DNA of 40,619 nt from Pseudomonadota bacterium (GTDB taxonomy: Bacteria; Pseudomonadota; Gammaproteobacteria; JAKAQQ01): NCBI GenBank assembly GCA_021798115.1, contig JAJZYM010000016.1, positions 1 to 40,619 on the forward strand, read 5' to 3'. Positions 541-10,627 of the stretch are shown here, piece by piece. Below the pieces are notes generated by a model, which saw nothing but the letters and a program-made list of their open reading frames with translations, had not been told where the DNA came from and ran no database searches. The translations under genes were made by a program, and so were the position numbers. Numbering within the stretch: position 1 is the first letter of the stretch; each line of letters starts with the position of its first letter.

Positions 541-1806
541 TCAGGCCACCGACTGACCGGGCGTGCATCCCCCCGTGGGTGCTGCACCGAGTCCCAGACG
601 TTCGTGGAGTGCCCGAAGCGCACGCTCCGCTTCGGTCTCATCGACCGTGACCGAAAGGCGGATCTCGGCCGTGGCCGCCATGCGCACGGCCACCCCCTCC
701 TCGGCCAGAATGGCGAAAAGACGTGCGGACACCTCGGGGTGAGACCGGAGTCCCAGACCGACGAGCGAGATCTTCGCCACGCTCGGGCAGCCCGAAACGC
801 TCTCCGCGCCCTCCGCACCGGCACGATCGCGAACGAGCGCTTGCGCGCGGGCGTAGTCCGCCCGGGAGACGGTGAACGAGAGATCGATCCGGCCGTCGCG
901 CGCCACGTTCTGGACGATCATGTCGAGACAGATCCCGTGCGCGGCGAGTGGGGCCAGAAGGCGTGAGGTGACCGGGCGGCGGGCGGGGAGACCGAGAACG
1001 CTGATCTCCGCTTCCTGGGGGCTCAAGGCGAGGCCGGCCAGAACGAGTCCCTCGACCCCCTCCCCGACGTCCCCCACCCGTGTCCCCTCCCCGCTACGGA
1101 AACTCGACAGCACCTTGAGCGGCAAGCGATGGCGGCCGGCGATCTCAACCGAGCGAATGTGCAGGACCTTCGCGCCCGAACCGGCCATCTCGATCATTTC
1201 CTCGTAGCTCAGCGCCTCTCGTCTCGAAGGCAGGGACACCACCCGGGGGTCGGCGCTGTACACACCGTCGACATCGGTGTAGATCTGGCATTCCGCGGCG
1301 CCGAGGACCGCCGCGAGGGCCACGGCCGTCGTGTCCGAACCGCCGCGGCCGAGGGTCGTCCAGCGGCCGGCGGCCGTGGCCCCCTGGAAGCCACACACGA
1401 CCGGGACCCGGCCGGCGGCGAGATCGGCGGCGAGGAGCGCGCAATCGATATCGCGGATGCGGGCCCGGCCGGGGGACTCGTCGGTCAGGATCCCAAGCTG
1501 GAGCGCGTTGTAGGAACAGGCCTCGACGCCTCGGGCCCGGAGAGCGATGGAGAGAAGGGCGGCGTTGGCCATCTCCCCGGTGACGAGGAGAGCGTCGAGC
1601 TCCTCGGGGGAGGGTTCGGGGCTCACGGCGCGTGCGCTCTCGAGAAGCCGATCGGTGGCCCCGGCCGGAGCCGAAACAACGACGACGAGATCGTGGTCGA
1701 CCGCCGTGGCGGCGATGCGTTCGGCCACGATGCGGACACGCTCGGGATCGGCGAGGGAGGTTCCGCCGTACTTCTGGACGACGAGCGGTCGCTCAGGCGA
1801 CGTCAC
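541..1806 (-). CDS. lysC: Aspartate kinase
   Basis: Phosphorylates aspartate, the first step toward lysine, threonine, methionine and diaminopimelate. The kinase domain opens with VVQKYGGTSLADPERV, continues through GRGGSDTTAVALAAVL and YTDVDGVYSADPR, and is followed by two ACT regulatory domains (from about residue 260). The chosen GTG at 1806 gives 421 aa, close to the family's ~410. A GGAG sits upstream, and the start overlaps the alaS stop by 14 bases, indicating translational coupling. An upstream frame to 1947 exists but its sequence is low-complexity and overlaps alaS, so it was not used. The ACT domains imply feedback inhibition by lysine and/or threonine. Confidence 0.95.
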   Translation of the reverse strand: MTSPERPLVVQKYGGTSLADPERVRIVAERIAATAVDHDLVVVVSAPAGATDRLLESARAVSPEPSPEELDALLVTGEMANAALLSIALRARGVEACSYNALQLGILTDESPGRARIRDIDCALLAADLAAGRVPVVCGFQGATAAGRWTTLGRGGSDTTAVALAAVLGAAECQIYTDVDGVYSADPRVVSLPSRREALSYEEMIEMAGSGAKVLHIRSVEIAGRHRLPLKVLSSFRSGEGTRVGDVGEGVEGLVLAGLALSPQEAEISVLGLPARRPVTSRLLAPLAAHGICLDMIVQNVARDGRIDLSFTVSRADYARAQALVRDRAGAEGAESVSGCPSVAKISLVGLGLRSHPEVSARLFAILAEEGVAVRMAATAEIRLSVTVDETEAERALRALHERLGLGAAPTGGCTPGQSVA

Positions 1807-4399
1807 GAAGGCGCTCCTCGACCCAGCGGGGAACGGCGGCAAGAACATGGTCGAGCGCTCCGGGGTCGCCTCCGCCGGCCTCGGCGAAATCGTCACGCCC
1901 GCCGCCGCGGGCGCCGGCGAGAGGACCGACAGCGGCGAGAAGGGCACGGGCCGAGAGACCGTGCGGAGCTTGCGGGGTCACGGCCGCCAGAAGACGCAGA
2001 CGGCCGTCGACGACGCTGGCCAGGAGGACCACCGCGGGGCTCCCGAGGCGTGCACGCAGCCGATCCGCCGCCTCGCGGAGCGCGGCGGGCGCCACGCCGT
2101 CCAGGGGGGCGGCGAGCACGCTCACGCCGCCCACCTGGACACGGCGGGCGAGAAGATCCGTGCCGCCTCCATCGAGAAGTCGCCGTTCGAGTTCGGCGAT
2201 GCGCCGCTCCTGCCCCCGCAACTCCGCTTGAAGCTTTTCAAGCCTCTGGGGGAGATCCGCCACCGGAACGTCGAGACGGTGGGCGGCGTCGAACAAAAGC
2301 GCCTCACGTTCGTCCGCCCAACGAAGCGCCGCGAGGCCCGCCACCGCCTCGAGCCGACGAACACCGGCTGCGAGCGGACCTTCGCTCGTGATCTTGAAGC
2401 CGCCGATCTCGCCGGTGCGGGCAACGTGGGTCCCGCCGCAAAGCTCGAGCGAAACGTCCCCGAAACCCACCATGCGCACCTGATCGCCGTATTTTTCACC
2501 GAAAAAGGCCAGAGCCCCTCTCTTCTGCGCTTCGGCCAAGGGGACAAGAGCAACCTGCGCGGGAAGATCGGCGAGGATGGCGCGCACGACGTCCTCTTCC
2601 ACCCGCGCGCGTTCCTCGCGACCGAGTGGGCGCGGGGCGGCAAAATCGAATCGCAGACGATCGGGCGCCACAAGAGACCCGCGCTGCTGGACCTGTTCGC
2701 CGAGCACCCGGCGTAGCGCGGCGTGGACGAGGTGCGTGGCACTGTGATGACGGACGAGGGCGCGTCGACGCTCGTCGTCGACCAGGGCACGCACAGGGTC
2801 ACCGCGTCGAATCACTCCCTCGACCCGTCCCCAATGAAGAATCGCTTCGCCCCGTCGCTGGGTGTCGTGCACAAGGAACCGACCCGCCGGAGCGTGGAGC
2901 ACACCCCGGTCACCCACCTGGCCGCCACCCTCGGGATAGAAGGGCGTGCGGTCGAGAACGACAGCGCCTTCCTCGCCGTCCACGAGCTCCACCACCGGCC
3001 CACGGCCGTTCTCGAGCGCGAGGACGGTCCCCTCGTCGGTGAGGGTCTCGTAGCCAGAAAAATGGCTCTTCTGACCTTCATGCTCGAGACGATCGGCGCG
3101 GAAAGAGGAAGCCCGACGGGCCCGTTCGCGCTGTTCGCCGAGCGCTTTCTCGAACCCCTCGACGTCGACCGTCCAACCCCGCTCACGCAGCACGTCCTGC
3201 GTCAGATCAAGAGGAAAGCCGTAGGTGTCGGCGAGGCGGAAAGCCACCCGCCCGGGAAGAACCCGCCCCGGCGTGCGCTCGAGCTCGGCTTCGAGGAGGG
3301 CAAGCCCTTCACGGAGGGTCAGGCGAAAACGCTCTTCCTCGGCCCGCAGGCAGACCCGTGCCGTCGCCTCGCCGGCAGAGAGGGCGGGATCGGCCTCGCC
3401 CATGAGCGCCACCACGGTCGGAACGAGAGCGTCGAGGAAGGGTTGGTCGGCACCGAGCTTGACACCGTGACGGACGGCGCGCCGAAGGATTCGGCGCAGA
3501 ACGTAGCCCCGCCCTTCGTTGCCCGGAAGCACGCCGTCGGTCACGAGAAACGTGGCGGCACGGACGTGATCGGCAATGACGCGAAGCGACGGCTGTCCCT
3601 CGTCGCGCACGCCCACCGCCGCCGCCGCCGCCGAGACGAGCGCACGAAACAGATCCGTCTCGTAGTTCGAGACGACCCCCTGCATGACGGCGGCGATGCG
3701 CTCGAGGCCCATCCCGGTATCGACACAGCGCCGCGGCAGCGGCGTGAGGGTCCCCGCCGCATCGCGCTCGTACTGCATGAACACGATGTTCCAGATCTCG
3801 ACGTAGCGGTCCCCCTCGACACCCGAACCCGGAGGACCACCCGGCACGGACGCTCCGTGGTCGTAGAAGATTTCGGTCGAGGGACCGCAGGGTCCGGTCT
3901 CGCCCATCGCCCAGAAGTTGTCGTCGCCGGCGATGGCCACGACGCGCTCGGGGGGAACACCGATCTCCTCGCGCCAGAGCCGCGCGCTCTCGGGATCGTC
4001 CGCGTGCACCGTCACCCAGAGACGCTCGGGCGGAAGCTTGAGAACCCCCACGAGATAATCCCAGGCCAGGCGAATCGCCTCGGGCTTGAAGTAATCGCCA
4101 AAACTGAAATTGCCGAGCATCTCGAAGAGCGTGTGGTGACGTGCGGTGTAGCCCACGTTGTCGAGATCATTGTGTTTTCCGCCGGCCCTGAGGCAACGCT
4201 GTACCGAGGCCGCCCGCGCGTAGGGGCGGCCCTCGCGCCCGAGAAAGACATCCTTGAATTGCACCATGCCCGCGTTCACGAACAGGAGCGAGGGGTCGCG
4301 TTGCGGCACAAGCGAACTCGAGGGCACCACCGTGTGATCGTGCGCGGCAAAATAGTCGAGGAAACTCTGGCGCAATGCGCCGGTGGTTTGGGGGGGCAT
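1793..4399 (-). CDS. alaS: Alanine--tRNA ligase
   Basis: Charges tRNA-Ala. At 868 aa it is the standard full-length enzyme. Visible parts are the class II catalytic core (MVQFKDVFLGRE, GGKHNDLDNVG, GETGPCGPSTEIFYD), the editing domain with its zinc-binding HSATHLVHAALR and CGGTH motifs, a coiled-coil-like stretch (LQAELRGQERRIAELERRL), and the C-terminal C-Ala domain with a glycine-rich GGGRDDFAEAGGG segment. Its stop overlaps the lysC GTG start. Upstream, where recX normally lies, there are 403 bp and then the foreign-looking operon at 4803-9330. Confidence 0.97.
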   Translation of the reverse strand: MPPQTTGALRQSFLDYFAAHDHTVVPSSSLVPQRDPSLLFVNAGMVQFKDVFLGREGRPYARAASVQRCLRAGGKHNDLDNVGYTARHHTLFEMLGNFSFGDYFKPEAIRLAWDYLVGVLKLPPERLWVTVHADDPESARLWREEIGVPPERVVAIAGDDNFWAMGETGPCGPSTEIFYDHGASVPGGPPGSGVEGDRYVEIWNIVFMQYERDAAGTLTPLPRRCVDTGMGLERIAAVMQGVVSNYETDLFRALVSAAAAAVGVRDEGQPSLRVIADHVRAATFLVTDGVLPGNEGRGYVLRRILRRAVRHGVKLGADQPFLDALVPTVVALMGEADPALSAGEATARVCLRAEEERFRLTLREGLALLEAELERTPGRVLPGRVAFRLADTYGFPLDLTQDVLRERGWTVDVEGFEKALGEQRERARRASSFRADRLEHEGQKSHFSGYETLTDEGTVLALENGRGPVVELVDGEEGAVVLDRTPFYPEGGGQVGDRGVLHAPAGRFLVHDTQRRGEAILHWGRVEGVIRRGDPVRALVDDERRRALVRHHSATHLVHAALRRVLGEQVQQRGSLVAPDRLRFDFAAPRPLGREERARVEEDVVRAILADLPAQVALVPLAEAQKRGALAFFGEKYGDQVRMVGFGDVSLELCGGTHVARTGEIGGFKITSEGPLAAGVRRLEAVAGLAALRWADEREALLFDAAHRLDVPVADLPQRLEKLQAELRGQERRIAELERRLLDGGGTDLLARRVQVGGVSVLAAPLDGVAPAALREAADRLRARLGSPAVVLLASVVDGRLRLLAAVTPQAPHGLSARALLAAVGPLAGARGGGRDDFAEAGGGDPGALDHVLAAVPRWVEERLRDVA

Positions 4400-4802: not shown

Positions 4803-5708
4803 TCAGAGCGGCCGGTGAAGCAGCACGAAGAACGACACGATGGCCAGCTGCGCAAGAGGGTAATAGCTGGCACGGTCGAACAGTTTCGCGGCCGCCCGGG
4901 TGTCGTGCCCACGAACCAGCCTCCACGCGGGCAGCACAAGCAGGAACACCCCCGCCGCGGCGCTGGTCACCCGATACGCCGTGCCAAGCCTGAGCGGCGA
5001 CATCCACGGCAGGAACATGCTCAGAACGAGAGTCAGGGTGAGGGTGACCGCCACCAGGGCCCCGGCGAACCGAAGACCCCATACGAGAGGAATGGTTTGC
5101 GCGCCGACGCGTTGATCTTCTTCGACATCGTTCCAGTCCGCAGGGATATTCTGGCCGCCGATTTCCCAACACATGAGCCACGCCAGAAGCAAAAGCAGCA
5201 GGGGGAGCGGAGGGTCGGGCCGGACCACGAAAACCGCGGCCAGTGGACCGGCCGACTTGACCAGACCGCTGACCAGCGTTCGCCAGTAGGTCAACTTGAG
5301 AAGAGCGCAGTAGATCACTTCGAGCACGGCGGCGGCAAGCACAACGAGCACGAGGACCGGTCGGAGCAGAAAGGCTCCGACGAGTGTCAGGGTGAACCAG
5401 AATACGAACCAGGCGATAGCGTCGCGCATGCTGAGCAGGCCCTGCGCCAGCGGGTGACGCATCACGGTGGCTTCCACCGCGTAACCCGCGTTGATCTCGC
5501 CGCCGGCAAACTTCGCCCGGTCGACCTTGACCCCGACGAGATCGTTGAGCGCATAGACGGCGATATAGCCCGACCCTGCGGTCAACAGCGAAAGCAGGAG
5601 CAACCGCCACGAGGGGAGATGCCCGAGCCAGAGCAGGGCGACGAAGCCCGGCATCGCCACGTCCATGATCGCGTGCTTCAGTCGTGAGAGCGCCAAGAAT
5701 CGCCGCAC
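4803..5708 (-). CDS. eboC: UbiA-family prenyltransferase, EboC-like
   Basis: Integral membrane prenyltransferase of the UbiA superfamily, 301 aa. It has 7-9 hydrophobic helices and both Asp-rich prenyl-diphosphate/Mg sites: NDLVGVKVDRAK (about residues 55-66) and DWNDVEEDQRVG (about 190-201). UbiA enzymes attach an isoprenoid chain to a small acceptor at the membrane. In the ebo cluster of cyanobacteria and other bacteria the UbiA member is called EboC. The name here rests on the adjacent SH7P-cyclase gene, not on a search. Start is GTG at 5708, three bases past the ubiG stop, with an AAGAG upstream. It is the last gene of a five-gene operon. The acceptor is unknown; a menaquinone- or heme-type substrate cannot be excluded. 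Confidence 0.8.
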   Translation of the reverse strand: MRRFLALSRLKHAIMDVAMPGFVALLWLGHLPSWRLLLLSLLTAGSGYIAVYALNDLVGVKVDRAKFAGGEINAGYAVEATVMRHPLAQGLLSMRDAIAWFVFWFTLTLVGAFLLRPVLVLVVLAAAVLEVIYCALLKLTYWRTLVSGLVKSAGPLAAVFVVRPDPPLPLLLLLLAWLMCWEIGGQNIPADWNDVEEDQRVGAQTIPLVWGLRFAGALVAVTLTLTLVLSMFLPWMSPLRLGTAYRVTSAAAGVFLLVLPAWRLVRGHDTRAAAKLFDRASYYPLAQLAIVSFFVLLHRPL

Positions 5709-5711
5709 CGA

Positions 5712-6425
5712 TCATGCCGCTCTTTTGGTAAAGAAGATCATGTAGTTGACGTCTTCCTTGTCGTTCTCCAGCCGGAACCTCTTCGTCAAAGGGTTGTACA
5801 TCAAGCTTGCACTGCCCGTGGGTTCGAGGCCTTGAGCACGCGCCCAACCCCGAAGTTCCTCCGGACGAATCAGTTTCTTGTAGTGGTGTGTGCCACGGGG
5901 GAGCAGTCCGAGCACGTACTCGCCGGCAATAATGGCAAACAGAAAAGACTTGGGCGTCCGATTGATGGTGGAGAAAAAGGCCCCCCCACCGGGCCGGAGA
6001 GCCCGCGCCACAGCGGCGATCACCGCCCGCGGTTCAGGCACGTGTTCCAGCATTTCCATGCATGTCACAGCGTCATAGCTCCCGGCTTCTTCTTGGGCAA
6101 CCTGCTCCACGCTCGAGCAGCGGTAATCGATCGCGAGACCGTGTGCCTCGGCATGCCGGCGCGCAGCTTTCAACGCCTTCTGCGATAGATCGATGGCGGT
6201 CACACGCACGCCGGATCGGGCCAGACTTTCGGCGAGAATCCCACCGCCGCATCCAACATCCAAGACTCTCGTCGGGGAACCGCCGATCCTCTGAAGAACA
6301 AACCTCGAACGCAGCGGATTGATGACGTGCAGCATGCGCATCTCGCCCTGAGGATCCCACCAGGTCTGCGCAAGACGATCAAACTTCTCAACCTCTTCCT
6401 GATCTGCATTCACAAACCGATTCAT
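5712..6425 (-). CDS. ubiG: UbiG-type SAM-dependent O-methyltransferase
   Basis: 237 aa, the normal length for UbiG, which carries out both O-methylations in ubiquinone synthesis. Family marks are EVEKFDRLAQTWWDPQGEM near the N-terminus, the SAM-binding VLDVGCGGGILAESLARSG, then MEMLEHVPEP and a typical UbiG C-terminal half (LPRGTHHYKKLIRPEELRGWA). The ATG at 6425 is preceded by GGAGGA about 9 bases upstream; longer frames into the gene before it lack UbiG similarity. It overlaps the end of the cyclase gene by 38 bases. Its location inside an ebo-like operon is unusual. It may be the housekeeping UbiG or a copy recruited to methylate the cluster's product; the window cannot decide. Confidence 0.88.
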   Translation of the reverse strand: MNRFVNADQEEVEKFDRLAQTWWDPQGEMRMLHVINPLRSRFVLQRIGGSPTRVLDVGCGGGILAESLARSGVRVTAIDLSQKALKAARRHAEAHGLAIDYRCSSVEQVAQEEAGSYDAVTCMEMLEHVPEPRAVIAAVARALRPGGGAFFSTINRTPKSFLFAIIAGEYVLGLLPRGTHHYKKLIRPEELRGWARAQGLEPTGSASLMYNPLTKRFRLENDKEDVNYMIFFTKRAA

Positions 6426-7551
6426 GCCACGGATTCCTCCACTTCTCGAGCTCCTCGACGGAGCGTTCGATCTCCCGCCGGGATATATCGTTGAGAAAAA
6501 CGCAACGACCAAGCGGATTCGGCATCGGAACGCTCTGATGGCCGTTTCGGTGTTCGACACGATCAAGAAGCGATCGCCACATGAGTTCGGGATCCAGGAG
6601 AGACCCGTCAAGCGCGATACCCAGCGTGTCTATCAGACGGAAGATCCGGTCGGTTTCACTCACGGAAAGCAGATGTCTTCTCTGCGCGATCAGGACCGAG
6701 ACGACGATATCCAAAAGCACCGCCTCGCCGTGCAGCAGATGATCTTCATGACGAGCCTCAAGCCCGTAGCAGAAGGTGTGGCCGAAGTCCATCGGACGCA
6801 TGAGGTTGCTTTCGAACAGATCCGGCTCAAGTTCCTCGAGGATGCCGGAAATGGCACGACGGAGAATCGCTTCCCCGGTGTCGTTTTGAAAGCGGGCGTC
6901 GATGCTCTCAGAACCATGCATCTCGAGCAGATGGAACAGATGCGCGTCTTTGATAATGGCCAGCTTGATGATTTCGCAGACACCGTTCAGGATGTGACAG
7001 CGAGGCAGAGTTTTCAGGAATCCTCGATCCAGAAAGACCCGCAAGGGAGGCTCGAAGCTCCCCAGACGATTCTTGTGACCGTTGAAGTTGATTCCGTTCT
7101 TGATGCCTACGGCAGCGTCGACGTATCCCATGAGGGTGGTGGGTACCTTGACATGAGGAACGCCACGGCGGTAGCTGCTGGCGACATAACCGACGACATC
7201 GGTCAGGACACCACCGCCGATCGCGATGATCGGCTCGTCTCTACGATGGATGGGAAACGCGTCAAGCTCGCGCAGGAGATCAAGATAGCGATCGAACGTC
7301 TTGTCTATTTCACCGCCGGAAAAAAGGACAATCTTGGCGTCGATCTTCCGATGAGCGAAATAGGACGCGATCTCCTCGCCACGGTGCTGCGCCACTTGGC
7401 GATCCAACACCACGAACCGTCGCCCCCCCTCGAGCCTGCCGGGCAAAAGGAGCGCCGTGCTTTGGGGTGAAAAGAGGCTGGAACATTCCGTGATGTCGTA
7501 GGCCAGCGTCCGGTGGTGACGGACGCACCAGCGGGCGGGCTCGCGGGTCAT
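6388..7551 (-). CDS. eboD: Sedoheptulose-7-phosphate cyclase family protein (dehydroquinate synthase-like, EboD-like)
   Basis: 387 aa member of the dehydroquinate-synthase superfamily. The sequence IGGGVLTDVVGYVASSYRRG, then VKVPTTLMGYVDAAVGIKNG and the following INFNGHKNRLGSFEPP are characteristic of the sugar-phosphate cyclases (EEVS, DDGS, EVS) that turn sedoheptulose 7-phosphate into C7 cyclitols, rather than of AroB. The metal ligands are visible: E in VCEIIKLAIIKD, H in DFGHTFCYGLE and H in LLHGEAVLLD. Start ATG 7551 overlaps the luxS stop as ATGA. The EboD name follows the adjoining UbiA and TIM-barrel genes. Which cyclitol is made (valiolone, epi-valiolone, deoxygadusol type) cannot be told from these motifs by eye. 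Confidence 0.82.
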   Translation of the reverse strand: MTREPARWCVRHHRTLAYDITECSSLFSPQSTALLLPGRLEGGRRFVVLDRQVAQHRGEEIASYFAHRKIDAKIVLFSGGEIDKTFDRYLDLLRELDAFPIHRRDEPIIAIGGGVLTDVVGYVASSYRRGVPHVKVPTTLMGYVDAAVGIKNGINFNGHKNRLGSFEPPLRVFLDRGFLKTLPRCHILNGVCEIIKLAIIKDAHLFHLLEMHGSESIDARFQNDTGEAILRRAISGILEELEPDLFESNLMRPMDFGHTFCYGLEARHEDHLLHGEAVLLDIVVSVLIAQRRHLLSVSETDRIFRLIDTLGIALDGSLLDPELMWRSLLDRVEHRNGHQSVPMPNPLGRCVFLNDISRREIERSVEELEKWRNPWHESVCECRSGRG

Positions 7552-8075
7552 ACAGCAATCAACCAGGCGGATCTGCGCTCAAGAATCTCGGCCGCGAGTC
7601 TCTGTGCCCGTTCCAGGCTGTGGCTGCGGTAATCACCGCACTGATCGATGCGTGCGTAAGGCACGGCCGTCGCTTCTCGAATGCCCTTCAGGATTGCTTC
7701 CAAGGTCATGCAGATTTTGTCGGCGCGGCCTTCATTCAAGAAAACGAGGTAAAAGCCGGTCCGGCAACCCATGACACCGACGGAAACAAAATGCGCCGCA
7801 AGATACCGCCGATAACCTTCGAGGAGGAAATGCTCGAGGGAGTGTAGTTCGACACCCGTCAGGCGGCGTCCGGTGTTCGGACGACGAACGCGCAGGTCGA
7901 TGCAATAGACGGCATCACCGTTCGCGCCCACGCTGATGGACCGCAGCTTGACGCTTGGTGCTTTGAGCAAACGGTGATCAATCTCCCCGACGGTTTCGGG
8001 GTCCCAACCAAGGTCGGCTATCCCGATCGTGCTCGTTCGATCAGGCTCGGACGTGGTGCCCACAACAGTACGCAA
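7548..8075 (-). CDS. luxS: LuxS-family S-ribosylhomocysteine lyase, divergent
   Basis: LuxS cleaves S-ribosylhomocysteine to homocysteine and DPD, the AI-2 precursor. This 175 aa protein keeps the family's landmarks: IDHRLLKAPSVKLRSI (LuxS LDHTKVKAPYVRL), DLRVRRP, the metal-binding HSLEHF (two His plus catalytic Glu), the active cysteine in MGCRTGFYL, and the third metal ligand in QCGDYRSHSLERA. It has about 30 extra N-terminal residues. The start is TTG at 8075, decided by GGAGAGG 4-8 bases upstream and a gap of only 10 bases after the preceding stop; a GTG at 8063 is the alternative. LuxS is not a usual member of ebo-type clusters, so it may recycle SAM by-products here or act on another substrate. 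Confidence 0.85.
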   Translation of the reverse strand: MRTVVGTTSEPDRTSTIGIADLGWDPETVGEIDHRLLKAPSVKLRSISVGANGDAVYCIDLRVRRPNTGRRLTGVELHSLEHFLLEGYRRYLAAHFVSVGVMGCRTGFYLVFLNEGRADKICMTLEAILKGIREATAVPYARIDQCGDYRSHSLERAQRLAAEILERRSAWLIAV

Positions 8076-8085
8076 CTATCCTCTC

Positions 8086-9330
8086 CTACACGGTGATGTA
8101 CGGCGCCAGACACCGGCGGCTTTCAAGCAGAGCGCTTTGCCATAAAGCGTTATGGTGGTAGAGCTCGATCGTGGCGTAGCCCGAAAAGCCGTGACAACCC
8201 AACGCATTGAAACTCGCGGCGAAATCCAGTGTGCCCTCTCCAGGGATCTCGTGAAAATGTGTGATGCCCGTGCGTGTGTTGGCAACTCTCTTGCGAACAC
8301 GTGGCGGGTTCTTCACGCCGCGCAAATAAGCGATCACGGGCTTGGCCCGCTCCAACACCTCGTAGCTCAATCCTGGAACAGAAATCAGATAGGTCCAAAT
8401 CTCGTCGTCGAAATCGGACGAGCCCATGTACAAACTCGGGTAATCGATATATTCCGGTGATTTGTCAACACCCGCACGCGCGAGCAGGACGTCGATGCGG
8501 CGGCGGCGGCGCAGATCTGGACCGGCATCGCAAAAATAAAGTGGGTGCCGACGGTCGACGAGGAGATAGTCGGCGTTGTCCGGGAAATAAATCAGTTTCG
8601 CCGCCGCATCAAGATCGAAGGTTATATCGTCGGCATCGTTTTCAATCTTGAGGTTATATCCGCGCGACGCATCCGAGACGTGCAGGTAACGTGCCCACGG
8701 GGCTGCTTCGGACAGGGATCGGATGTAGTCCGTTTCGGAACAGTAAGCGTGGCACAGATCCACATGCAGGCCGAAGCGGGGCGAACCCACCTCCTTGATC
8801 AACGACAGCCCCTGATCAAGCGTTTCCACGAACATCCCCGGTTCCGGCTCGATCAACAGCGTGATGTTTTCGTCGTCGTGAAAATCGCGCAGGCATTCCT
8901 GGACACCCTCGATCAGAAGAGTGCGTGGGTCGACCGACAGACTCCTCGCATGCTCGTCACGGAGAAAACCACTTCCAAAAGTGACGAAGGGCGCGCCCAG
9001 ACGACGGGCGGCGCGGATACCACGCTTGATGAGATCAATGCGCCGCTTGCGCCCCGCAAGGTCAAGCGCGAGCAGCGACGGTTCGTGCGGCCGGGAAGGC
9101 GTAAAGAAATACGAGGCCGTTGCAACACACGCCGCCTCGAGACGAGCCTTCCGCAGATGATGTTTCAGCTCGACAAAATCTTCGTCGCTCGCATCGAACG
9201 GATCAAGTTGGCGGCGGTGGAAGGCAATCTCGATCCCTGTGTAGCCCGCTTGCCCGACTACGTCAATAGCACTCCGAAGATCCAGATCGGTCAATCCGAA
9301 CGTGCTGTAGCTCAACCGAATTCCCTTCAT
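8086..9330 (-). CDS. Xylose-isomerase-like TIM-barrel sugar isomerase/epimerase (EboE position)
   Basis: 414 aa, first gene of the five-gene operon. The N-terminal ~280 residues look like the AP-endonuclease-2/IolE-type barrel: MKGIRLSYSTFGLTDLDLR, YTGIEIAFHR, NITLLIEPEPGMFVETLDQG (metal-binding Glu) and FGLHVDLCHAYC, LHVSDASRGYN. A roughly 130-residue C-terminal part follows and ends in GYATIELYHH. Such proteins isomerise or epimerise sugars and cyclitols. In ebo clusters the barrel protein is EboE, but this one is recognisable only as a member of the broad superfamily. ATG 9330 was chosen because sequence upstream is basic and non-conserved. No clear Shine-Dalgarno is seen. It may supply or process the cyclase's substrate or product. 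Confidence 0.75.
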   Translation of the reverse strand: MKGIRLSYSTFGLTDLDLRSAIDVVGQAGYTGIEIAFHRRQLDPFDASDEDFVELKHHLRKARLEAACVATASYFFTPSRPHEPSLLALDLAGRKRRIDLIKRGIRAARRLGAPFVTFGSGFLRDEHARSLSVDPRTLLIEGVQECLRDFHDDENITLLIEPEPGMFVETLDQGLSLIKEVGSPRFGLHVDLCHAYCSETDYIRSLSEAAPWARYLHVSDASRGYNLKIENDADDITFDLDAAAKLIYFPDNADYLLVDRRHPLYFCDAGPDLRRRRRIDVLLARAGVDKSPEYIDYPSLYMGSSDFDDEIWTYLISVPGLSYEVLERAKPVIAYLRGVKNPPRVRKRVANTRTGITHFHEIPGEGTLDFAASFNALGCHGFSGYATIELYHHNALWQSALLESRRCLAPYITV

Positions 9331-10093: not shown

Positions 10094-10627
10094 CTACGGC
10101 TCCTCGCGCGGAGGGTCTTCATCGAGCTCGTGATCCTCCCCGCGGAGGAGGGCCCGAAGCGTAGCCGCCTCGTAGCCACGTCGGGCGAGAAGCTGACGCG
10201 CCCGCGCCACGCGCCCGGGGTCGCGTTCCCAGCCGGACCCCAGACGTCGGTGGCAGAGTTCGGCGGCGGAAGCAAGAGCGGCCCCCCGGGTCTCGGCCAG
10301 GCAACGATCGACGAGCTCACGCGCCAGCCCGACGGCGGTCAGTTCAGCCCGAATCAGGAGAAGCCCTTTGCCGCGGCGGAGGAGCACGCGCAGACGTTCC
10401 CTCGCGTAGCGCTCATCGTCGAGGTAGCCTTCGGCCGCCAGGCGGTCGAGCACAGCGTTCAGGGTGTCCTCAGCGCCGCCATGCCGACGGAGCCACGCGG
10501 CAAGCTCTCCCCGTGCATGGTCGCGACGCGCCAGGCGGGCCAGCGCACGGGTGTAGAGGGGTCGTTCCCCCGAATCACCCCCTGCGACGGAATCCTTGGG
10601 GCGTGGCTCCTCAGGCGTCGTCCGCAA
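10094..10627 (-). CDS. recX: Regulatory protein RecX
   Basis: RecX binds RecA filaments and limits or modulates strand exchange. The 177 aa sequence has the tandem three-helix repeats of the family: [20 protein letters not shown], then [37 protein letters not shown] and a last repeat ending [13 protein letters not shown]. It overlaps the recA stop by 17 bases, a usual recA-recX coupling. In most gammaproteobacteria alaS follows directly; here the ebo/luxS operon lies between. Confidence 0.93.

Follow-up and report, generated by a model that had tools for sequence, protein, structure and literature searches.

The EEVS pathway that the locus described here resembles above all is that of BE-40644 in Actinoplanes, where, in the portions of the source consulted, the EEVS is paired with a UbiA-superfamily prenyltransferase (PMC5133447). 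The two have in common a cyclase of the sedoheptulose 7-phosphate (SH7P) type and a UbiA protein, a combination that would lead to a prenylated cyclitol-derived product. As far as the description of BE-40644 goes, the present block differs in having a LuxS-family protein, a UbiG-type protein and a long TIM barrel as fixed partners. In the ebo (EDB) clusters, on the other hand, all three counterpart proteins belong to families other than those of the block, and LuxS and UbiG are features of the block. UbiA-297, the UbiA protein of these clusters, is reported to act in vitro as a farnesyltransferase on quinoline acids (PMC9235831), and hydroquinones of known meroterpenoids can derive from SH7P (PMC5618424).

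A block of the same composition has been listed before. For SURF MAG 42 (Anaerolineales), Table A1 of PMC8756737 gives a xylose isomerase-like protein, LuxS, EEVS, UbiG and UbiA beside nirS, with consecutive protein numbers and in the order found here. In the examined parts of that paper, the five are treated as neighbours of a nitrite reductase, nirS neighbourhoods in general are discussed, some similar ORFs are mentioned for Anaerolinea thermolimosa, and no joint function is proposed for the five genes. A limited literature search found no further publication on the block.

Here, we analyze this block in a stretch of 40,619 nucleotides from a Pseudomonadota bacterium (contig JAJZYM010000016.1 of assembly GCA_021798115.1), called the window below. 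The genes are listed in Table 1.

Table 1. The five genes of the block in the window.
Gene	Position	Strand	Family match	Length and start
TIM barrel (first gene)	8086..9330	-	PF01261	414 aa
LuxS-family metalloenzyme (second gene)	7548..8075	-	PF02664	175 aa; TTG start
Cyclase, SH7P-cyclase type, EEVS/DDGS group (third gene)	6388..7551	-	PF01761 + PF24621	387 aa
UbiG-type SAM O-methyltransferase (fourth gene)	5712..6425	-	TIGR01983	237 aa
UbiA-superfamily membrane prenyltransferase (fifth gene)	4803..5708	-	PF01040	301 aa; GTG start

A conserved five-gene unit

All five genes lie on the minus strand, at the positions originally predicted. Successive genes are separated by 10 bases, an overlap of 4, an overlap of 38 and 3 bases, in agreement with the tight packing (gaps of 3-10 bases or overlaps) that had been predicted. 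The block lies between alaS and recA. On the recA side, a small gene (10094-10627) intervenes, which has no Pfam match at 1e-10 and is presumably recX, judging from its reading. Scanning the window for Rfam families and tRNAs gave no matches, and the numbers of promoter-like sites (2, against a shuffle mean of 1.4) and terminator-like sites (8 against 6.1) are nothing of note.

The five genes were found in identical order and strand in all 16 genomes retrieved via one of them, namely 4 proteobacterial genomes and 12 of 396 genomes sampled across the class to which a Chloroflexi MAG belongs, without any additional gene between the block ends. Each genome was retrieved via the cyclase, the TIM barrel or LuxS, and the independent result is thus the presence and order of the remaining genes. 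Since this order recurs in 16/16 genomes, the five genes form one unit, and their grouping is not chance. The recurrence of the neighbourhood in other genomes, which had been named as a check of the original prediction, is hence what was found.

The block sits at several different genomic addresses. In a rough comparison, no flanking gene was common to more than four of the 16 loci; alaS was matched among four, and weaker flank matches (25-43%) connect L052 with L100, L099 with L107/L108, and L103 both with L107 and with a distant gene of the window. Gene calling in the flanks followed a crude longest-ORF rule, by which true neighbours are missed; the presumed recX of the window, for instance, was left uncalled. 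For the five proteins, pairwise identities are correlated in 10/10 pairs (r 0.76-0.92; matched by 0/999 shuffles each), for which common descent alone suffices.

It is important to point out that the two samples, of 396 genomes and of 398 Pseudomonadota genomes, are each an even selection out of larger groups, and that the genomes with a stated make-up are drafts, so that absences are weaker than presences. In addition, a contig scan with two short peptide patterns gave 53 candidate stretches, of which 4 were confirmed (G001 and G003 being found again); because only these two patterns were used, the true spread of the block is larger than counted. The cyclase of L105 has a stop ca 8 codons into the tblastn stretch, perhaps upstream of the true start; it was omitted from the reference list and used with X at stops in the site table, the tree and the distances.

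Cyclase, TIM barrel and Ubi-type proteins

The cyclase matches PF01761 (114.9 bits) and PF24621 (75.5 bits), and its best solved match is the EEVS ValA (4p53, 301 bits), compared to 226 bits for DDGS 5tpr and 129 bits for the best AroB. In a tree of 51 rows, constructed without DOIS, EVS and BE-40644, the cyclases of the block form a 16-row clade (100/100) within the EEVS/DDGS group (100/95). The AroB clade (100/99) stands apart from them and the EboD clade (100/100) excludes them. As a separate gene with an AroB-level match is present elsewhere in the same genome (at C36), and the clades are separate, AroB could be ruled out as an assignment. On sequence grounds, the protein is thus of the SH7P-cyclase type and belongs to the EEVS/DDGS group, being neither AroB nor EboD, and the predicted C7-cyclitol-type cyclase as the start of the pathway is supported by its placement in the tree.

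Among the active-site positions, some of which were examined, three carry letters that we take to be EEVS-specific: Leu in 15/16 (Ile in one), Asp in 16/16 and His in 16/16. Other positions differ from EEVS. One is Tyr (14) or His (2), compared to Pro in both EEVS and DDGS, and another is Asn where most have Asp. The product may therefore differ, also because a weak fork (84/82) joins the clade to DDGS rather than to EEVS.

The TIM barrel is xylose-isomerase-like (PF01261, 121.5 bits), and its His217 strand and the strand preceding the last part of the barrel are ca 140 residues apart. Its structural model (pLDDT 80.5) is best matched by L-ketose-3-epimerase 2zvr (Z 28.7, 251 aligned, rmsd 2.3), and the Foldseek matches include IolE 3cny, AsbF 3dx5 and IolI 1i60. 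The PF01261 proteins IolE, IolI and AsbF act on cyclitol ketones. Glu161, Asp191, His217 and Glu389, which we assume to be the metal ligands, are present in 16/16. The protein is probably a metal-dependent cyclitol-ketone isomerase or dehydratase.

The UbiG-type protein scores 262.7 bits with TIGR01983, over the equivalog cut-off of 102.95. The other UbiG of the same genome (G000:C6) scores 217.1 bits and is 44% identical to it over 217 aa, which makes the operon protein a paralogue at the level of sequence. That it is the sole UbiG could be discarded, a second one over the cut-off being present in G000, G001 and G003. In a tree with other UbiG rows, the branches are very long, the deep forks weak and the bootstrap unsettled, and no conclusion is based on it.

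The UbiA-like protein matches PF01040 (96.1 bits) and 14 NCBIfam models, reaching the cut-off of none; with the 4-hydroxybenzoate prenyltransferase model TIGR01474 it scores 35.2 bits, below the cut-off of 275.45. N55, D56, G59 and D63, as well as D191, D194, E197 and D198, are found in 16/16, the first motif presumably having Gly where Asp is usual. Canonical ubiA (335 bits, cut-off 275) and cyoE are located elsewhere in the genome, and the operon protein has no BLAST match to this UbiA at E<=1. As judged from these matches, the fifth gene belongs to the UbiA superfamily, but is not UbiA, CyoE or EboC. The methyltransferase and the prenyltransferase of the original prediction are both recognizable in these family matches.

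The LuxS-family protein

The LuxS-family protein scores above the gathering score of PF02664 (104.3 bits, cut-off 27) and reaches the cut-off of none of the ten NCBIfam LuxS equivalogs, the best being 105 versus 158. With canonical LuxS it shares the fold, its predicted structure (pLDDT 86.5) being nearest to H. pylori LuxS 1j6x (TM 0.89 by target), and also the metal and acid/base residues, with HxxEH, Cys104 and Cys146 intact in 16/16. It differs in forming a separate clade (100/99), on a long branch for which the tree warns of long branches meeting, and is 28-46% identical to 32 canonical rows. Three of these rows are PDB stretches and the other 29 are those with loci among 50 non-cluster Pseudomonadota matches, so that most are of one class; the LuxS of L101 was omitted from alignment A9 only.

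The substrate site is altered. The Asp at position 98, six residues before the catalytic Cys, is Ser in 15 and Cys in one of the 16 proteins, while it is kept in 32/32 canonical rows. This Asp is Asp78 in B. subtilis numbering. The equivalent of Phe7 is likewise replaced in 16/16, and that of Arg65 is Arg in four (window included) and Gln in 12, compared to Arg in 32/32 canonical rows. Arg62 and His34 are also retained. According to PMC2656534, Glu57, Arg65 and Asp78 of B. subtilis LuxS matter for substrate binding.

A LuxS-profile search, which is blind to clusters without LuxS, gave 12 matches in the 396 Chloroflexi-class genomes, all inside the block, and no LuxS of another kind at E<=0.001. 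In the 398 Pseudomonadota genomes, one of 51 matches lies in a block (318 bits, versus 122 for the next). Within these samples, this type of LuxS is therefore tied to the block, being seen only there.

We also considered the enzymes of S-adenosylhomocysteine turnover. MTAN nucleosidase over the cut-off was found in 0/16 block genomes, while the same model was over the cut-off in 4/14 control genomes. In one block genome (G205), a frame error splits an MTAN-like gene into two pieces of 129 and 56 bits, and six Chloroflexi-class genomes have matches of 47-62 bits to the model. Phosphorylases were named with NCBIfam in G000, G056 and G057, and G001 and G003 were covered by the MTAN profile test alone. 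SahH is present in 15/16. Considering the lost substrate Asp, the MTAN and SahH counts and the restriction to the block, the protein is probably a pathway enzyme rather than a recycler of S-ribosylhomocysteine. It could still accept this substrate, because Arg62, His34 and all catalytic residues are kept and the Arg65 equivalent is Arg in 4/16. The role that had been predicted for it, clearing of S-ribosylhomocysteine, is thus disfavoured by the MTAN and SahH counts and the altered pocket, the intact catalytic residues notwithstanding.

Proposed pathway and its alternatives

On balance, we favour the reading that the block encodes one pathway, from a valiolone-type ketone via the TIM barrel and LuxS to prenylation by UbiA and O-methylation by UbiG, yielding a prenyl-phenol or quinone. 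The recurrence of the block and the placement of the cyclase both lend support to the single pathway of the original prediction. By homology, the product of the cyclase from SH7P would be a 2-epi-5-epi-valiolone-type C7 cyclitol ketone. Shifting of the carbonyl and elimination of water may then be the task of the LuxS-family enzyme and the metal-dependent TIM barrel. LuxS chemistry consists of ketone migration followed by beta-elimination, and the block enzyme would retain it, with a cyclitol as the substrate instead of S-ribosylhomocysteine. Loss of two waters from a valiolone (C7H12O6) would be enough to arrive at a trihydroxybenzyl alcohol (C7H8O4), no redox enzyme being required, and this would account for the absence of such an enzyme from the block. 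Next, as homology and the gene set suggest, UbiA would add a prenyl chain and UbiG would methylate a hydroxyl. The product would reside in the membrane and resemble ubiquinone, being a methoxylated prenyl-phenol or quinone that derives from sugar instead of chorismate. More tentatively, and with considerable doubt about the whole, LuxS may have been recruited to aromatise, together with the TIM barrel, a sugar-derived C7 cyclitol in a redox-free manner, relatives of UbiA and UbiG then finishing a shikimate-independent prenylquinone; the same joint reading, equally doubtful, has this as a portable block common to a Chloroflexi class and a few Proteobacteria.

That LuxS is instead an ordinary lyase, clearing the by-product of UbiG beside a four-gene cyclitol pathway, is quite unlikely in our judgement. 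The operon methyltransferase would be a source of SAH, the LuxS-like fold (1j6x) and all metal and acid/base residues are kept, and there are the frame-broken MTAN-like gene and the weak matches in six more genomes. However, the substrate Asp is missing in 16/16, all ten equivalog cut-offs are missed, MTAN is over the cut-off in none of the 16 genomes compared to 4/14 controls, SahH is present in 15/16, and the 396 genomes have no LuxS of another kind at E<=0.001. A divergent ebo cluster, having lost eboA, eboB and eboF while acquiring luxS and ubiG, is very improbable. The design is similar and three superfamilies are in common, sugar phosphate cyclase, UbiA and the xylose-isomerase-like TIM barrel (PMC5133447, in the parts consulted), but the TIM barrel has no match to the EboE model NF035939 and UbiA none to the EboC model NF035940 at E<=0.001, while a true ebo cluster is recognized by these models with 506 and 390 bits. 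The best match of the EboC model anywhere in the genome is at 7e-4. Neither tblastn of TIM barrel or UbiA against eight loci with EboD-clade cyclases (at 1e-3) nor BLAST against one EboE and one EboC gave any match, and the cyclase falls outside the EboD clade. Membership in the ebo family was rejected on these results, and the kinship with ebo clusters that had been suggested is not supported.

Another option, unlikely but deserving attention, is a non-aromatic, prenylated and methylated C7-cyclitol, i.e. a carba-sugar lipid, with LuxS and the TIM barrel only epimerising or shifting the ketone. The structural proximity of the TIM barrel to ketose 3-epimerases (Z 28.7) fits this option, as does the TIM-barrel-type gene that two other SH7P-cyclase plasmid loci likewise carry. 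The UbiG-type methyltransferase (262.7 bits) speaks against it, since this family acts on phenols. A side branch of ubiquinone synthesis, with a spare ring source and a spare UbiG and UbiA, would agree with the equivalog-level score of the operon UbiG, but is hardly to be expected: the genome already has a second UbiG and its own UbiA (335 bits), to which BLAST did not match the operon protein at E<=1, and the block is found in Chloroflexi too, which to our knowledge are without ubiquinone.

LuxS is used as an indicator of AI-2 quorum sensing and of the activated methyl cycle, and we know of it solely as an autoinducer-2 and S-ribosylhomocysteine enzyme. The conserved clade, the altered substrate site, SahH in 15/16 genomes and MTAN over the cut-off in 0/16 mean that a luxS annotation need not imply AI-2, and LuxS chemistry may have been taken over by a biosynthetic pathway. 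Should the product be an aromatic prenylquinone, the block would constitute a lipid quinone route from SH7P. The five genes seem to be enough for the pathway, which makes it directly testable.

Recurrence and history of the block

The original prediction described five packed minus-strand genes, and its coordinates, spacings and families are borne out by the analysis (see the table). In order of transcription (genes 1 to 5 of the table), 10 bases separate the first two genes, the next two junctions overlap by 4 and by 38 bases, and 3 bases lie between the last two; the block is flanked by alaS on one side and recA on the other.

The five genes of the block in the window
Gene	Location	Strand	Protein
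1	within 4803-9330	-	xylose-isomerase-like TIM barrel
2	within 4803-9330	-	LuxS-family protein
3	within 4803-9330	-	sugar phosphate cyclase
4	within 4803-9330	-	UbiG-type methyltransferase
5	within 4803-9330	-	UbiA-superfamily protein

Among 56 related genomes, close relatives of the cyclase were found only in G001 (94%) and G003 (65%), the remaining matches being at the level of AroB, and LuxS is present in three, namely the genome of the window and the same two relatives. Both of these have all five genes, in the order seen in the window. Scanning genome contigs with the TIM barrel as query yielded four loci, the two relatives again and two new ones, L051 in a Chloroflexi MAG and L052 in a proteobacterial MAG, each with all five genes. 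We considered a sample of 396 genomes from the class of the L051 genome, searched for LuxS at E<=0.001. The cluster-type LuxS was found in 12 of them (241-305 bits) and no second kind of LuxS in any; in all 12, the TIM barrel, cyclase and UbiG genes adjoin it, and so does UbiA. Of 398 Pseudomonadota genomes, 51 gave a match to LuxS, and the only one of the cluster type is the window's own (318 bits vs 122 for the next). The proposal that the five genes form a single unit is upheld by their recurrence: all five, with order and strand unchanged, are present in 16 of 16 genomes found through one of them.

An independent sighting is found in Table A1 of PMC8756737, where these five proteins appear in this order under consecutive protein numbers, next to nirS in an Anaerolineales MAG; a literature search of limited depth gave no published trace of the block beyond that table.

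The surroundings of the block vary by locus. G001 has alaS and recA as flanks, like the window, while at L051 (965-4326) genes for EPSP synthase, shikimate dehydrogenase and chorismate synthase are directly upstream and an AhpC/TSA-family gene is downstream, and at L052 NadA and an FAD-binding protein are upstream. In a rough comparison of the ORFs beside the block, no flanking gene was common to more than four of the 16 loci. We also observed alaS downstream of the block at four of the 16 (window 1793-4399, L021, L104 and L105), sharing its strand in two cases and lying on the opposite one in two.

Pairwise identities computed for one of the five proteins correlate with those for each of the others, with r of 0.76 to 0.92 for all ten pairs (0 of 999 shuffles). 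The four proteobacterial copies cluster together in the cyclase, LuxS, TIM barrel and UbiA trees, and are 49-70% identical to the Chloroflexi copies. The most economical history is that of a single portable block transferred between the phyla.

The cyclase and the relation to ebo clusters

Compared with solved structures, the cyclase scores highest with the EEVS ValA (301 bits), followed by DDGS (226) and AroB (129). A 51-row tree places the 16 cluster cyclases in one clade (100/100) within the EEVS/DDGS group (100/95), separate from EboD (100/100) and from AroB (100/99), such that the tree placement called for by the original prediction puts them outside AroB. Within EEVS/DDGS, the cluster clade joins DDGS at a weakly supported fork (84/82). 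At three sites that we take to discriminate EEVS from DDGS and DHQS, the cluster agrees with EEVS (Leu in 15/16, Asp in 16/16 and His in 16/16). At another site, where Pro is shared by EEVS and DDGS, 14 cluster cyclases have Tyr and two have His. These comparisons cover part of a 14-site fingerprint described in PMC4426668. From placement and site letters together, the enzyme probably acts on sedoheptulose 7-phosphate and probably yields a valiolone-type ketone, though its product may be a new one.

A further pairing of a sedoheptulose-7-phosphate cyclase with a TIM barrel was noted on plasmids of Agrobacterium vitis (L131) and Rhizobium rhizogenes (L132), where a ROK-family gene comes after the cyclase gene, with a sugar isomerase/epimerase or TIM-barrel gene further along.

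The original comparison with ebo clusters is apt in its logic, the superfamilies being shared, but does not hold as a relationship by descent. Models for ebo proteins miss the operon proteins yet detect a true ebo cluster, and no BLAST similarity was found between the TIM barrel or UbiA of the block and the ebo counterparts compared. It seems that each of the operons was assembled on its own out of the same superfamilies. In addition, EboD-clade cyclases at L127, L128 and L129 have UbiA proteins nearby whose EboC-model scores are only 105-120 bits, against a cut-off of 250; these loci are a divergent ebo variant in gammaproteobacteria. NCBIfam PRK06203 (573 bits, cut-off 333) gives the name 3-dehydroquinate synthase to a true EboD at L122 (6277-7470), which is likely a misnaming.

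The LuxS-family protein and its substrate

The block's LuxS is LuxS-like in sequence, modeled fold and motif, and its metal and acid/base residues are retained in all 16 copies. It nevertheless reaches none of ten LuxS equivalog cut-offs, and its copies make up a clade of their own (100/99) with a long branch. Six residues ahead of the catalytic Cys, 32/32 canonical rows have Asp, whereas 15 cluster copies have Ser and one has Cys. This position is equivalent to Asp78 of Bacillus subtilis LuxS, which is named for substrate binding in PMC2656534. The equivalent of Phe7 is Leu in 16/16, compared to Phe in all 29 canonical rows covering the position. At the Arg65 equivalent, 12 copies have Gln and four, among them the window's, have Arg.

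The originally suggested role was the clearing of S-ribosylhomocysteine. This compound is made by MTAN, SahH being the other way to remove SAH. MTAN exceeds its cut-off in 0/16 cluster genomes, with hits of 47-62 bits in six genomes of the Chloroflexi class, while SahH is present in 15/16 and absent only from the G001 draft. In G000 (the window's genome), G056 and G057, the phosphorylases were named as MTI phosphorylase, MTA phosphorylases and purine nucleoside phosphorylase, and the HpnG-like proteins of this set fall below the HpnG cut-off. With these counts, and with the Asp78 equivalent replaced in 16/16, the clearing role is disfavoured. The separate clade, the altered substrate residues and the MTAN and SahH counts together speak for, but do not prove, a LuxS with a new substrate. 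Of the 16 genomes, G205, the genome of L105, has the best candidate for a source of S-ribosylhomocysteine, an MTAN-like gene disrupted by a frame error (C2:269991-270720, two pieces of 129 and 56 bits).

A possible pathway

Structurally, the TIM barrel model comes nearest to the ketose 3-epimerases, with 2zvr at Z 28.7 over 251 aligned residues (rmsd 2.3), and IolE and AsbF are among its Foldseek matches. Four residues conserved in 16/16 are presumably metal ligands; some 140 residues separate the strand of the third from the region before the fourth. The UbiG-type protein exceeds its cut-off and is 44% identical to the second UbiG of the same genome. The UbiA protein is distinct from the genome's own UbiA and CyoE and has both Asp-rich motifs, the first containing Gly.

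Loss of two waters from valiolone would give trihydroxybenzyl alcohol with no redox chemistry. The required carbonyl shift and elimination could fall to the TIM barrel and LuxS, two enzymes suited to such chemistry, and prenylation and O-methylation by enzymes of the ubiquinone type would follow, so that the five genes would account for five steps. Both the order and the product are what we infer. There is precedent in that sedoheptulose 7-phosphate can supply hydroquinones for meroterpenoids, as described in PMC5618424, and in the pairing of an EEVS with a UbiA protein for BE-40644, described in PMC5133447. The block is a real, conserved five-gene pathway, and its most surprising part is a LuxS that looks repurposed.
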